A stretch of DNA of 25,810 nt from positions 1-25,810 of the IMG/VR virus record IMGVR_UViG_3300031578_000302; one strand, given 5' to 3'. This document shows, piece after piece, positions 4,873 to 9,181 of this stretch; position 1 is the first letter of the stretch, and each line of letters begins with the position of its first letter. The stretch comes from a virus. Both the position numbers and the translations under genes were made by a program. A model generated the notes under the pieces. It made no database searches. It worked only from the letters and a program-made list of their open reading frames with translations, and had not been told where the DNA came from.

Positions 4873-7212
4873 ATGACACGATTCGTTAATTTTGGGGGAC
4901 AAACCCAGTTCAAACCAGGTGGCCTCACGCGCATCAATCCAAGCGCGTTGGCACCAATCGGCCTTTCGGCCACAGGCATAGTCCATCTGCTGGGTGAAGC
5001 AGACGGAGGAATCCCTGGCGCAAGTGGACTCATCATCATGGATGATCCCGCTGAAGCCAAGGCAGCACTACGGTCTGGTCCACTGGCCGATGCCATTCGC
5101 GTTGCGTTTGGGCCATCCGGTGACTCAAGAATTCCTGGAGGCGCATTCCGGTGCGTCATCTACAAGACCAACAACTCAACCCAAAGCGGGACACAGCTGC
5201 CTGGTGACGATGCATTCATAGCAGACACAGCAGCAGGTGCACCGACGACCACGTCCATTCAGCTGACAACCAACACGACAATGGTGGTCAACGCGCACGC
5301 TGGTAGGTGGTTCAAGCTGGTAGCTACGGGAGAAAAGCGGCGCATCGTATCGAACACGGTGGACACGATTGTAGTGTCTCCTGGTTTCAAAGCCGCACCT
5401 GCTGCTGCAGCCGTAGTGCAGATTCTCCAATCTCAACTACTCCTCACTTCCGCAGACTACGGCGCACACACCAACCAAGTGTCTGTCGAGTTTGAAGCAG
5501 GTGTTGGTGATGGATTCGTCGTCACACTCGCCTTTGAGGACCAAGTGGAGCGCTCACCAGAAGTTGGTGGGGAAAGTTTCCTCGACCTCAAGTACGTTGG
5601 TGGTCCGTCGTTCATCGCAGGCAACTCGACTGCAATTGATGCCACAGGATTGATCATCACAACGGACATCAGTGCGGTGGGTGCGAACGATGCAGCCGGA
5701 ATGTTCATGCGATTCGCTGATGGGTCGCAGCGTGAGATTGCCAGCAACACCATCGGACCTGCGTCGGTGTACACACTGTCGGCTGGGCACGCTCTCACGA
5801 CTTCACAGATCGCAGCACTGGCTGTGAGTGCTGTCGATGTCATCAACGTGCTCACGTCGGCGGTAAGCATCACTGGCACCAATGGGCTCTCCACTGGGCT
5901 CACCAGCACAGTCACTCCGACTGCAGACAACCTTGCAATCGTATTCGCGACTGCTGGATTGACTACTCTTCGACAGCTGGTTGACTACCTAAACGGTAAC
6001 ACCAACTACGAAGCGACCATCCCCAATGGTGTGAACCCCGACACCACACTCCTGAACACCTACGACTTCGGTCAACGGAACACGGCTGTGGATGTTCGAT
6101 TCGGCACCGACATCACTCCATCCACCAAGGGAACCTTCCGCAGGGATCTGCAGGAAGCTGTGGACTGGATCAACCGGTTCGCCACTCTCGCAACGGCAGC
6201 CAGAGCTACGGTTGGGGCTACCGAAGGAAGCGAGATCCCGGACTACACGGGCGGCGTCTCTGGCACCATTCGCGATGTTCCTGTGTTCTTCATCGGAGGC
6301 ACCCGAGGAATCTCGGCCAACTCCAACTTCCAGGCTGGCTTCGACGAGCTTGTCCAGACTCGAGCCAACCATATCGTTCCGCTCATCAGCCAGGACCTCA
6401 CCAATGAGGGCAACGGCTCGACTGCTGAGATGGCCTCCGTGGCTGCTCAGTTGCTCTCGCACGTGCAGTACGCACGCCTGCAAGGCAAGAACGAGCAGGG
6501 CGGTTACCTGGGCTTCAAGGGCACCAAGACACAGTTCTTGGCCCAAGCAGCTGCGCTCAACGACACAGACGTGCAACTCATTCCCCAGCAGATGGCTTTC
6601 CTCGACGTGGACGGCAACCTGAAACTGATGGATGAGTGGGCCTCAGCTTGTGCCGCAGCAGGCATGCGCTCGGGAGCCAATGAGGTTGGAGAACCCCTCA
6701 CTTTCAAATACATCAAGACCAGCCAGCTCGAATGGGACTCCAGCTGGAGCCCAACCAACCGAACCGACATCAATCAGCTCCTTCAGGGTGGCATCATGTT
6801 CGCCGAGATTGCGGCGGGTGGTGTGCGTTGGGTTCGTGACATCACGACCCACCTGAAGAACGACGACACCGCATTCATCGACGGCAGTACTCGTGACGCA
6901 GTGCGGTACGTGGCCTATGACCTCCGCCAGTTTCTGGAGGACAGGTTCACGGGTCTGAAGGCGACCCCAGCCACAGCGGCATCCATCCGCGAGTCTGTGG
7001 CAGCCAAGATGGCTGACTACCTCACAGACCATATCATCGTGGAATCACTTGATCCTGAGACGGAGACCACGATCATCAAGGGCTTCCGCAACTTGCGGGT
7101 ACGCATTGTGGGTACTGTCGCTGACATCAAAGTGGAGATCTTCCCGGTCACGGGCATCGTCTTCCAACTCAACGACATCTACCTCCAGCTGCCAATCATT
7201 GTGGCTGCATAG
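4873..7212 (+). CDS. Tail sheath protein
   Basis: This 779-aa protein is the contractile outer tube of the tail. GAGGAG lies upstream of ATG 4873. The C-terminal third shows the sheath pattern: NHIVPLISQDLTNEGNGSTA near residues 500-520, then ITTHLKNDDTAFIDGSTRDA, a helical DLRQFLEDRFTG segment, VAAKMADYL, and closing strands KVEIFPVTGIVFQL and IYLQLPIIV. This region forms the handshake between sheath subunits in contractile tails. The N-terminal FVNFGGQTQFKPGG start, with GLSATGIVHLLGEADGG, also fits sheath proteins. Two small beta inserts (residues about 122-189 and 255-320) make it longer than the 450-660 residues common in the family; they should protrude from the surface. The J-domain gene follows directly, then the tube gene. 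Confidence 0.93.
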   Translation: MTRFVNFGGQTQFKPGGLTRINPSALAPIGLSATGIVHLLGEADGGIPGASGLIIMDDPAEAKAALRSGPLADAIRVAFGPSGDSRIPGGAFRCVIYKTNNSTQSGTQLPGDDAFIADTAAGAPTTTSIQLTTNTTMVVNAHAGRWFKLVATGEKRRIVSNTVDTIVVSPGFKAAPAAAAVVQILQSQLLLTSADYGAHTNQVSVEFEAGVGDGFVVTLAFEDQVERSPEVGGESFLDLKYVGGPSFIAGNSTAIDATGLIITTDISAVGANDAAGMFMRFADGSQREIASNTIGPASVYTLSAGHALTTSQIAALAVSAVDVINVLTSAVSITGTNGLSTGLTSTVTPTADNLAIVFATAGLTTLRQLVDYLNGNTNYEATIPNGVNPDTTLLNTYDFGQRNTAVDVRFGTDITPSTKGTFRRDLQEAVDWINRFATLATAARATVGATEGSEIPDYTGGVSGTIRDVPVFFIGGTRGISANSNFQAGFDELVQTRANHIVPLISQDLTNEGNGSTAEMASVAAQLLSHVQYARLQGKNEQGGYLGFKGTKTQFLAQAAALNDTDVQLIPQQMAFLDVDGNLKLMDEWASACAAAGMRSGANEVGEPLTFKYIKTSQLEWDSSWSPTNRTDINQLLQGGIMFAEIAAGGVRWVRDITTHLKNDDTAFIDGSTRDAVRYVAYDLRQFLEDRFTGLKATPATAASIRESVAAKMADYLTDHIIVESLDPETETTIIKGFRNLRVRIVGTVADIKVEIFPVTGIVFQLNDIYLQLPIIVAA

Positions 7213-7218
7213 GGGTAG

Positions 7219-7584
7219 CTGATCGACACGCCTGAACACGCAAGAGTTGCCTCACTGCTCGGAGTAAGTGGTGAGGCACTTCTGCATTGTGTTCAAGGGA
7301 AGTCTCGAGCTGAGAATCTGCAGCGAATGAACGACCTCATCACGAGCGCCAAGAGGGCGTACAAGAAGCTCGCTCGGGAGCTGCACCCAGACCACAATGG
7401 CGGGTGTGCGCAGAAAGAGAAAGAATTCAAGTCACTTGCACTGGCGTTTCCAGTGGTGATGCAATTTTTGGTAGAGACACGGGACGGACCTGCCACAAGC
7501 CGAAGACCGAGAATCAAGATCTCCATAGCGGAGCCAGCGATTACAGAACTGCAAGTGAAGCGGTCCTACGATGTCTGGAGTTGA
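7219..7584 (+). CDS. J-domain (DnaJ-like) co-chaperone protein
   Basis: From ATG 7327 the protein reads AYKKLARELHPDHNGG, which is J-domain helix II plus the essential HPD tripeptide (codons 7384-7392), followed by a helix KEKEFKSLALAFPVVMQFLV. HPD stimulates the ATPase of DnaK/Hsp70. The frame stays open upstream to TAG 7216-7218 and encodes a plausible helix-I region (HARVASLLGVSG), which a J-domain needs. No ATG, GTG or TTG occurs there, so the start is probably CTG 7219 or ATC 7222, with AGGGG at 7211-7215 as ribosome binding site; from 7219 the protein is 121 aa. The gene sits between sheath and tube, so recruiting host DnaK to tail assembly is a reasonable inference. Using ATG 7327 instead would leave a truncated J-domain of 85 residues. 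Confidence 0.75.
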   Translation: MIDTPEHARVASLLGVSGEALLHCVQGKSRAENLQRMNDLITSAKRAYKKLARELHPDHNGGCAQKEKEFKSLALAFPVVMQFLVETRDGPATSRRPRIKISIAEPAITELQVKRSYDVWS

Positions 7585-7620
7585 CGTTGATTCTAGTGTG
7601 CGATAGCTTGGAGGTACTGA

Positions 7621-7809
7621 TTGCCCAAGGCACGGTACTCGGCAGCACGCGACTCCTCCGTCTCGACTGTCTCTTTCGCTGAAATGAAGACGCCCATAGG
7701 GGCACAACCCACTAGACGGAGGATTGACGTATGGCTGCAAATGTATTTTCTGGAGCGCGTGCTCGTTTCAAAGTTGACGGAGTTCCCGTTGGCTGGGCAG
7801 GTGGAGTAA
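7621..7809 (+). CDS. Possible small ORF before the tail tube gene (doubtful)
   Basis: The 146-nt gap 7585-7730 contains GGAGG at 7610-7614 with optimal 6-nt spacing to TTG 7621. Translation from there gives 62 aa (MPKARYSAARDSSVSTVSFA as first residues) that overlap the first 79 bp of the tube gene in another frame. TTG is used as start by other genes here, so a leader peptide is possible. The C-terminal part is simply the tube gene read out of frame. I see no family resemblance, and the gap may be only a tube-gene leader. Confidence 0.2.
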   Translation: MPKARYSAARDSSVSTVSFAEMKTPIGAQPTRRRIDVWLQMYFLERVLVSKLTEFPLAGQVE

Positions 7810-8153
7810 GCGGTTCGGAGTCTATCGACTACGAGCCTGTGGACGTGATCGATCTCTTGGAGGTCCGTGAATTCGTCCCAGTTGCCTATCGGGCAACGCT
7901 CTCGGCACAGGTCTTCCGTGTCATCGGGCAATCGCTCAAGGCTGTGGGCATCTTCCCTGTGGAGGAGAATATCCTCACCAGTGGTGACCTCACTGCCACG
8001 GTCGAAGACCGACTCACTGGAAACACGATGGCTCAGTTCGAGAGCTGCAAAGCTTCCGAGCACAGCTTCGACATCTCAGCGCGAGGAATCGTCTCCGAGA
8101 ATGTCACCTTCGTGACCATTCGACTCCGCGACGAGTTCGAGAATCCGGTCTAG
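7731..8153 (+). CDS. Tail tube protein
   Basis: This 140-aa protein starts at ATG 7731 with CGGAGGA (7718-7724) at good spacing. It follows sheath and J-domain genes and precedes the chaperone pair, the usual place of the tube gene. The sequence begins FSGARARFKVDGVPVGWAGG, a short strand-turn-strand like the start of Mu/XkdM/gp19-type tube proteins. It continues as alternating strands (VPVAYRATLSAQVFRVIG, NTMAQFESCKASEHSFDISA) with a closing ENVTFVTIRLRDE segment. Length and all-beta character fit a tube monomer that stacks in hexameric rings inside the sheath. The family has low sequence identity, so the call rests on length, strand pattern and position. Confidence 0.85.
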   Translation: MAANVFSGARARFKVDGVPVGWAGGVSGSESIDYEPVDVIDLLEVREFVPVAYRATLSAQVFRVIGQSLKAVGIFPVEENILTSGDLTATVEDRLTGNTMAQFESCKASEHSFDISARGIVSENVTFVTIRLRDEFENPV

Positions 8154-8164
8154 GAAACTCCCGC

Positions 8165-8206
8165 GAGCATGGGTACGCAGCGGTTTTATTGACCGTTTGC
8201 GTGCTC
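8165..8206 (+). promoter_or_regulatory. Imperfect stem-loop between tube and chaperone genes
   Basis: GAGCA (8165-8169) pairs with TGCTC (8202-8206), CGCA (8176-8179) with TGCG (8198-8201) and CGG (8181-8183) with CCG (8193-8195), closing a 9-nt loop with a 6-nt bulge on the left side. No strong U-run follows. It could partly stop transcription or protect the tube mRNA end, which would suit the large excess of tube over chaperone needed in a virion. This role is inference. Confidence 0.3.
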
Positions 8207-8235
8207 TATTTCGCTCAAAGAAACCACTTGGAACT

Positions 8236-8736
8236 ATGAACACACCAAAGAATCAAAAGACTTTCACCATCAAGTACAAGAGTGATGAGACGGGTGAAAT
8301 CACCGAAGGTACTTTCACTGTCAAGCGATTGGCAGTGCGAGACCGTTCCCAGGTTGGGATGCGCAAAAGCCAACTCGCAGGCGGCATGTATTGCGTGCGT
8401 GATGACGAGGGCAACCCAACAGGGCAGGGCCTTGATGAGGACACGGATTACCTCAATGGCATGATTGCTCACCTCGAAGTAGCCCTAATCCAGAAACCAA
8501 GTTGGTTCAACTTGGCGGAGCTTGCCGATCTAGGCTTGGTCCGGGAGGTATATGGGGCAGTCTTTGACTTTGAGACCTCCTTTTTTCGTCTTGGACAAAA
8601 AGACGGGGACACTCCAGAAAGCGGATCTGACAACGTGGGCACAAAAGACCGCGTCCCAGAATATCAGGGAACCGGAGTTGGAAACGCTCCTACGCAGGTG
8701 GTGGACCAACAAGTACAAGCTTCCCTGGACGCATGA
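8236..8736 (+). CDS. Tail assembly chaperone, short product (gpG-like)
   Basis: I prefer ATG 8236 (MNTPKNQKTFTIKYKSDE, 166 aa) over TTG 8197, because TTG 8197 lies inside the hairpin 8165-8206. Neither start has a strong ribosome binding site. The N-terminal two thirds are a small alpha/beta domain (TFTVKRLAVRDRSQVGM, then DYLNGMIAHLEVALIQKPSWFNLAEL), as in gpG-like tail chaperones. The last ~50 residues are a Gly/Ser/Asp-rich tail read only by ribosomes that do not change frame. Position after the tube gene and before the tape measure, with a second overlapping frame, is the hallmark of the gpG/gpGT pair. The protein is expected to coat the tape measure during tail assembly and to be absent from the mature virion. 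Confidence 0.85.
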   Translation: MNTPKNQKTFTIKYKSDETGEITEGTFTVKRLAVRDRSQVGMRKSQLAGGMYCVRDDEGNPTGQGLDEDTDYLNGMIAHLEVALIQKPSWFNLAELADLGLVREVYGAVFDFETSFFRLGQKDGDTPESGSDNVGTKDRVPEYQGTGVGNAPTQVVDQQVQASLDA

Positions 8737-9181
8737 GTGTGCCCAATCCGCAACCCTTGAGGACCTCCTAGTCGAGTACTACGAGGACTTCTACGAAAAG
8801 AATCCCTCTGAAGCTCGAAAGGTGTTTTCTGAAGATGGTGAATTTTTCTTTGAGAGCACAGGCGATCCACTTCTCGACAAGTGGGAAGAGGAACTGCAGA
8901 AAGGTCTCATCCCTGATCTCGAGGAAGGGATGTCTGCGAAGGACAAAGATAAGCTCAGGGAGGAGCGTGCTTCCGTGCGTCGTGCGCGCGGGGCAGCAGA
9001 TGAACTGTTCAAAGAGCCCGACGAGAAGCGCTTGCGTGAGTACCAAAGCAAGTTCGCTTCTCCTGGCACAAAGCGTGAGCAGGACCTTCTTCAGCAACAA
9101 GCTCGCTACGGAATGCTCGGAGAGACTGGACCAACCGATGATGAGGGTTGGGAAGACATGTTGATGGGGATGAGTGACTAA
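8552..9181 (+). CDS. Tail assembly chaperone, frameshifted extension (gpT part of gpGT-like fusion)
   Basis: This frame is open from 8534 to TAA 9179-9181 and overlaps the gpG-like gene by about 185 nt. It is reached from the first frame by +1 or -2 slippage, most simply at 8581-8602, giving a fusion of about 314 aa. Coding character is clear from ELETLLRRWWTNKYKLPW onward; an aromatic WW..KYK..W motif is common just after the junction in such fusions. The rest is highly charged and helical (DKWEEELQKG, KDKDKLREERASVRRARGAA) and ends in EDMLMGMSD. In lambda-like systems this part binds the major tail protein and the tape measure. ATG 8552 with GGAGG 8544-8548 could also start a separate product, but its 3-nt spacing is poor. 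Confidence 0.8.
   Translation: MGQSLTLRPPFFVLDKKTGTLQKADLTTWAQKTASQNIREPELETLLRRWWTNKYKLPWTHECAQSATLEDLLVEYYEDFYEKNPSEARKVFSEDGEFFFESTGDPLLDKWEEELQKGLIPDLEEGMSAKDKDKLREERASVRRARGAADELFKEPDEKRLREYQSKFASPGTKREQDLLQQQARYGMLGETGPTDDEGWEDMLMGMSD
8581..8602 (+). other. Probable programmed frameshift site (T6C and A5G runs)
   Basis: Reading TTT TTT CGT in the first frame, tRNA-Phe on TTT 8584-8586 can re-pair with TTC 8585-8587 after +1, or with TTT 8582-8584 after -2. Ten bases on, CAA AAA GAC allows tRNA-Lys on AAA 8599-8601 to re-pair with AAG 8600-8602 (+1) or AAA 8597-8599 (-2). All lead to the gpT-like frame. CGTCTT 8587-8592 and AAGACG 8600-8605 form a 6-bp stem right after the T-run. A -1 shift would reach TGA within about 20 codons, so it is excluded here. 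Phage Mu is the known -2 precedent. Confidence 0.5.

Follow-up and report, generated by a model that had tools for sequence, protein, structure and literature searches.

The window, a stretch of 25,810 bases that makes up the IMG/VR virus record IMGVR_UViG_3300031578_000302, encodes a small J-domain protein in the gap that separates the genes for tail sheath and tail tube. In our estimate the chances are about even that this is an accessory class C J-domain protein, a putative recruiter of host DnaK that serves late infection generally from a variable slot of the late operon and has no dedicated client in the tail. Close relatives are without it at this place or have a different J-domain gene elsewhere, which suggests a mobile helper more than a permanent part of tail building. 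An earlier note had proposed that host DnaK is brought to the assembling sheath or tube, or that host Hsp70 is redirected during infection. The latter half of this idea, putative as it is, is favoured here.

The contractile-tail module of the window

The genes on the + strand of the window make up a contractile-tail module. The J-domain gene at 7219-7584, placed between sheath and tube by the earlier note, is confirmed: it is an open frame on the + strand, co-oriented with the late genes, whose product matches Pfam family PF00226 above the cut-off and whose neighbours are recognised as sheath and tube by phrog_279 and phrog_985. The features are as follows.

4873-7212, + strand: tail sheath gene (phrog_279, 3.3e-30)
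7219..7584, + strand: J-domain protein frame, 121 codons and TGA, with a probable non-canonical start at CTG 7219 or a nearby codon
7231..7293, + strand: N-terminal helix (residues 5-13) and inserted helix (residues 18-25), before helix II (AlphaFold2 models)
7306..7383, + strand: long helix II (residues 30-55) with the basic end KRAYKKLAREL (AlphaFold2 models; sequence)
7327..7329, + strand: first in-frame ATG; a start there would give an 85 aa product without the N-terminal helices
7384..7392, + strand: HPD tripeptide (residues 56-58; sequence, invariant in 4/4 family members)
7408..7482, + strand: helix III (residues 64-88; AlphaFold2 models)
7492..7581, + strand: C-terminal tail of low confidence; it contains the stretch RPRIKISI and, as residue 120, a W close to the end (alignment; AlphaFold2 model)
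7731-8153, + strand: tail tube gene (phrog_985, 1.9e-15)
8197-8736, + strand: tail assembly chaperone, gpG-like (phrog_25000, 3e-5), with the overlapping frame 8552-9181 next

The phage was said also to have a tail assembly chaperone of its own, and the phrog_25000 match, with the overlapping frame next to it, agrees with this. Further downstream come a gene for a tail protein that has lysin activity and the baseplate genes. The J gene itself was considered as a gpG/gpGT tail assembly chaperone and rejected: it is a separate frame, not one of two overlapping frames joined by a frameshift ahead of the tape measure, and the chaperone match falls at 8197-8736 instead. No promoter of its own was found for the J gene in 6900-8300 (0 found against 0.5 expected).

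In tblastn, the window tube aligns at 25% identity with the product annotated as 'tail tube protein' in two Mammaliicoccus phages. A search with the window sheath matched 309 phage records, none of them covering 80% of the sheath, and the best 15 matches listed are 25-28% identical. Judged from these alignments, the known isolates are distant from the window virus. No relative of the window tube was found in the bacterial genome contigs scanned with the tube alignment.

Two further observations concern the start of the tube gene. The 3' arm of a hairpin at 7642-7738 contains the tube gene GGAGG and the start ATG 7731; the fold energy z is only -1.64, the CTCCGTC/GACGGAG pairing is seen again in L013, L018 and L019, and a change in L015 may be compensatory. 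A 62-codon frame at 7621-7809, with a TTG start and a GGAGG before it at 7610-7614, overlaps the tube start and may be due to chance.

A variant J domain with an inserted helix

A J domain engages DnaK through helix II and the HPD motif, and this docking sets off ATP hydrolysis. Class C J-domain proteins supply a targeting part of their own. The window protein matches PF00226 (DnaJ) over residues 45-79 with an E value of 1.1e-7 and 32.3 bits, against a curated cut-off of 27.8. The alignment starts at profile position 18 of 63 and covers helix II to III only, because an insertion follows helix I. In place of the canonical short helix I closely joined to helix II, the LGV helix is separated from the basic part of helix II by about 20 residues and an extra helix. 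Because of this non-canonical junction the protein is filed as a variant J domain, in which, according to the models, a further helix is inserted after helix I and before helix II. It belongs to class C (type III), having no DnaJ G/F region or zinc finger and matching PF00226 as the only Pfam family at E <= 0.01. All four members of the small family described below match PF00226 at E <= 0.01 in the protein search; the match of L020 in the DNA search scores 18.7 bits, below the cut-off.

The AlphaFold2 model from the four-member alignment has a mean pLDDT of 69.5. That from a seven-row alignment, in which the look-alikes L073, L080 and L085 are included, has a mean pLDDT of 77.7, with the helices at about 85-95. 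The models place helices at residues 5-13, 18-25 and 30-55, followed by the HPD loop, a helix at 64-88/89 and a low-confidence tail. The HPD and helix II had been called clear from the letters, and they hold up well: the HPD lies at 7384-7392, in the loop between helices II and III in both models, and a long helix II spans residues 30-55. Solved bacterial DnaJ J-domains (PDB 1bqz and 5nro) align in helix II, HPD and helix III over window residues 44-81, but the window protein lacks the G/F region and zinc domain of bacterial DnaJ and has a long insertion between helices I and II.

Structure searches return J domains at modest significance. With the first model, J domains fill all of the first 8 PDB rows in Foldseek, the best at E 0.1 and prob 0.99, which is not significant by E value; with the second, the best PDB row is 5nro_B, a J-domain bound to DnaK (prob 0.97, E 0.36), again not significant by E value, and ranks 2-3 are designed proteins. 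A BFVD structure search gave DnaJ-domain rows at E 0.06 and above. In VIA-align, unrelated-looking helical bundles lead (best Z 7.3), and the row of the polyomavirus T-antigen J domain 1faf (Z 6.2) was given no weight because this Z lies within the range of common helical arrangements.

Homologues of the small J protein

Homologues over most of the length of the protein were found in three other viruses, at loci gathered as relatives of the window tube. The homologue lies immediately 3' of the sheath in L002 (31% identity to the window J protein), after a 125-aa gene in L005 (34%) and after a 354-aa gene, just before the tube, in L020 (25%). The frame is conserved in all three, and their tubes are 91%, 86% and 68% identical to the window tube, respectively. 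Residues L14, G15, L40, H56, P57, D58, F70, K71, L84 and W120 are invariant in 4/4 small J proteins. The three homologues end in a WW-x-R motif, which makes 3 of the 4 proteins, and the window protein ends in VWS. Conservation of the HPD, without which the earlier idea would have fallen, is therefore seen in every member, but partly by selection: homologues were found through the HPD or through patterns, one of which holds the HPD, and L005 and L020 were noticed via the HPD.

A four-member profile, run without filters over the loci gathered by then, found no further member and none lacking the HPD. A tblastn search with the window J protein against 50,697 phage records gave 16 records with a best E of 0.1 and none covering 80% of the query, and two further family members searched likewise gave partial J-domain matches only. 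The annotated neighbourhoods of three such partial matches (Rctr41k, TJE1 and R7M) show no tail context next to the match. Three weaker look-alikes (L073, L080 and L085) have the same architecture at 21-23% identity and lie outside recognisable tail genes; they were joined to the family on architecture and are left out of the placement figures. In 2/4 viruses the GC content of the J gene departs from that of sheath and tube (0.51 vs 0.60, and 0.31 vs 0.41-0.42), as an accessory gene might show.

The sheath-tube interval among relatives

The sample comprised 35 tube-relative loci, 33 of them with a sheath upstream; L030 has the tube only. A small J gene occupies the interval in 4 of the 33 loci with both sheath and tube, one being the window's own virus. 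The other 29 loci, whose sheath and tube genes belong to the same families, lack it there, among them loci of sister viruses whose tubes are 77-84% identical. Otherwise the interval is empty or is filled by proteins of varying length or, in L018/L004 and L045, by genes that look HNH-like by eye. Across relatives, then, the gene stays between sheath and tube in all four full-length family members but is missing from the interval in 29/33 loci.

This pattern bears on whether the protein is a dedicated tail co-chaperone, which would bring host DnaK to nascent sheath or tube and stop premature polymerisation of the monomers. Among the tube-relatives, every one of the four full-length members has its gene in this interval and in the same orientation; the exact position varies, but the interval stays the same even where the tubes are only 68% identical. 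The kept interval speaks for some link to sheath or tube, and in these four viruses it could equally mean selection for coupling to them. However, the wide absence of the gene, even from sisters with closely similar tubes, the location of the look-alikes outside recognisable tail genes, and the 10 records that carry a J gene downstream of a helicase instead (next section) all count against it. With the gene missing from the interval so widely and another J gene in its place elsewhere, we disfavour a duty restricted to sheath or tube and consider a dedicated tail co-chaperone unlikely.

A sheath-tube cargo slot was also sought in a distant cultured relative, Myxococcus phage Mx1, and dropped: its tube homologue lies directly 3' of the sheath, and the record is without a PF00226 match. 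Just downstream of that tube homologue (L164, OR576727.2:43464-46159) there are a tRNA gene cluster, small genes and HNH/Hef-like endonuclease genes.

A separate feature of the interval is a stem-loop just upstream of the tube gene in L021, L023, L024, L026, L027, L031, L032 and L046. Its loop contains the invariant 12-nt GTCGTCCCCTCC. The stem varies greatly in sequence, the 5' arm averaging 42% identity across the inner 14 pairs, but pairing persists: in 8/8 folds the loop is closed by 19-27 pairs. The Shine-Dalgarno sequence of the tube gene, about 30 nt further on, could pair with the CCTCC of the loop. No Rfam match was found in the 5 of the 8 loci that were searched. The stem-loop looks like a putative cis-acting RNA controlling tail tube expression.

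A second J type downstream of a helicase

PF00226 searched over the 35 tube-relative records finds a J domain in 14, exactly one in each: 4 in the interval and 10 elsewhere. In these 10 records (L056-L065) the protein has another, N-terminal domain followed by a C-terminal J domain, and its gene follows that of a phrog_16/UvsW-like helicase downstream, at a distance of between 14 nt and about 6.4 kb. Near-copies are present among them (G017/G018 and G022/G023). The helicase-side proteins share with the small J protein the virus lineage, the Pfam domain and the single copy per record. They differ from it in the C-terminal place of the J domain, in a Pfam match that takes in helix I and in the location downstream of the helicase. 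In one of these loci (L059:8493-13241) a ribonucleotide reductase large-subunit frame has internal HNH endonuclease matches, as in an intein.

The phrog_16 helicase is present in 11 of the 35 records, and 10 of these have the helicase-side J gene. The eleventh (G009, L020) has the interval J gene, and the 2.3 kb beyond its helicase yield no J match; in three helicase-side viruses the J gene lies 2.8-6.4 kb from the helicase, beyond what G009 can show. In 3 of the 4 interval-type records there is no helicase match, and these records are short and may end before the helicase region. Absence is weak evidence throughout, because all records are classed as linear and may be fragments, and one J gene per phage is only weakly tested. 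In a tree of sheath and tube, the 10-tip clade of the window contains 4 interval-type viruses, 5 helicase-type viruses and 1 in which no J gene was found (a 33-kb record), interleaved with one another. The tree used 24 of the 35 loci; of the 11 dropped, L021, L022, L025, L026, L029, L034, L043, L044 and L046 were set aside by eye as near-copies or redundant, and L039 and L041 as fragments.

We entertain only tentatively, as rather unlikely, the stronger proposition that a J function is close to obligatory in this lineage and that the two architectures, the small interval protein and the larger helicase-side one, replace each other. As for delivery of DnaK to sheath or tube, what stands of the original proposal is a J domain that looks intact, its HPD and the four homologues in the interval. 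What tells against it is the presence in 4/33 loci only, the sisters without the gene there, the other J gene elsewhere in 10/35 records and an interval that takes in other genes.

Relation to known phage J-domain proteins

Phage J-domain proteins are known already. RB43 gp057w (Rki), from a T4-related phage, is described as a functional J-domain protein of 237 aa with an N-terminal J domain, which is expressed early, acts on DnaK and stabilises sigma-32 (PMC3486835). Rki resembles the window protein in being phage-encoded and type III, in its HPD and in its likely partner, host DnaK. It is set apart by its description from the window protein, which has about 121 aa, an inserted helix and a place in the tail interval. 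What is new in the family described here is the inserted helix, the C-terminal motif and the place of the gene.

The likeness to Rki invites a reading as host takeover or counter-defence, in which the protein would tie up DnaK and alter sigma-32 stability, or blind a DnaJ-dependent defence, the tail operon serving only as an expression slot. The reported action of Rki on DnaK and sigma-32, the dependence of bNACHT25 on host DnaJ for sensing phage, as stated in PMC12169576, and the unrelated extra genes that relatives carry in the interval speak for this reading. However, Rki is early according to the same source (PMC3486835) whereas a gene between sheath and tube should be late, and no defence context was seen. 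We judge this reading distinctly unlikely.

Phage DnaJ proteins of the phrog_14336 type also have a J domain with HPD, but they are about 280 aa long with an N-terminal J domain. At their loci (L088, L128 and others among L071-L162) a peptide deformylase and a Clp-like ATPase are both nearby in 46/91, and the ATPase in 65/91. The cluster C mycobacteriophage McGee, a myovirus, encodes a DnaJ-like chaperonin, gp206; unlike the window gene, gp206 is listed with the genes of DNA metabolism and lies apart from sheath gp129 and chaperones gp132/133 (PMC9583779). Large aquatic phages carry DnaJ and DnaK, for which an assembly role has been suggested (PMC12619734). The general idea that a phage DnaJ recruits host DnaK for assembly is thus already published, and that source calls the role of DnaJ in phages not well understood. 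The literature searched, subscription papers being mostly outside its coverage, yielded no paper on a J-domain gene between sheath and tube.

Start codon and coding evidence

Codon 7219 is a CTG immediately 3' of a TAG, and the J frame contains no ATG, GTG or TTG upstream of 7327. The homologues align to the window protein from about residue 4. The frame has a codon log-odds of 0.02 per codon, where shuffles average -0.38 (sd 0.11); upstream of ATG 7327 it is 0.006 per codon (shuffles -0.40, sd 0.21), against 0.028 in the rest of the frame. Because homology reaches back to about residue 4 and codon use differs little on the two sides of ATG 7327, translation most likely begins near 7219 at a non-standard codon. 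Read-through from the sheath gene, which is in the same frame with two TAG codons between, is not favoured, because the L002 homologue is in another frame than its sheath and because TAG is the stop codon of 7 among the 15 window genes measured, with no sign of recoding.

That the gene is a decaying passenger losing its function in the window virus is very improbable: the missing standard start, a codon log-odds below the 0.13-0.27 of the 15 other genes measured, and a C-terminus shorter than in the homologues, with WW-x-R down to a single W before the stop, would fit decay, but the frame is open over 121 codons, keeps the HPD and helix II, has its N-terminal helices conserved upstream of ATG 7327 and recurs in a near-identical second contig (L003, 2 differences from the window over this locus).

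Proposed role and perspectives

Returning to the accessory DnaK recruiter, we propose that a small class C (type III) J protein would be made together with the late genes and would dock host DnaK through helix II and the HPD, while its flexible C-terminal tail may present or tether something. The gene would be an accessory one in a variable slot between sheath and tube. J function would be common in the lineage, provided either by the small interval protein or by the different, larger helicase-side protein, if the two are indeed equivalent. Because either of two different genes would then supply it, the task would probably be the recruitment or reprogramming of DnaK for the whole infection, not the folding of sheath or tube alone.

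Phage use of host Hsp70 beyond replication is poorly known. Sister phages with two different J proteins in two modules offer a natural comparison for tails, replication and the control of host stress. If the two J types do replace each other, what the phage needs would be command of host DnaK, and the position of the gene would decide only when and where.
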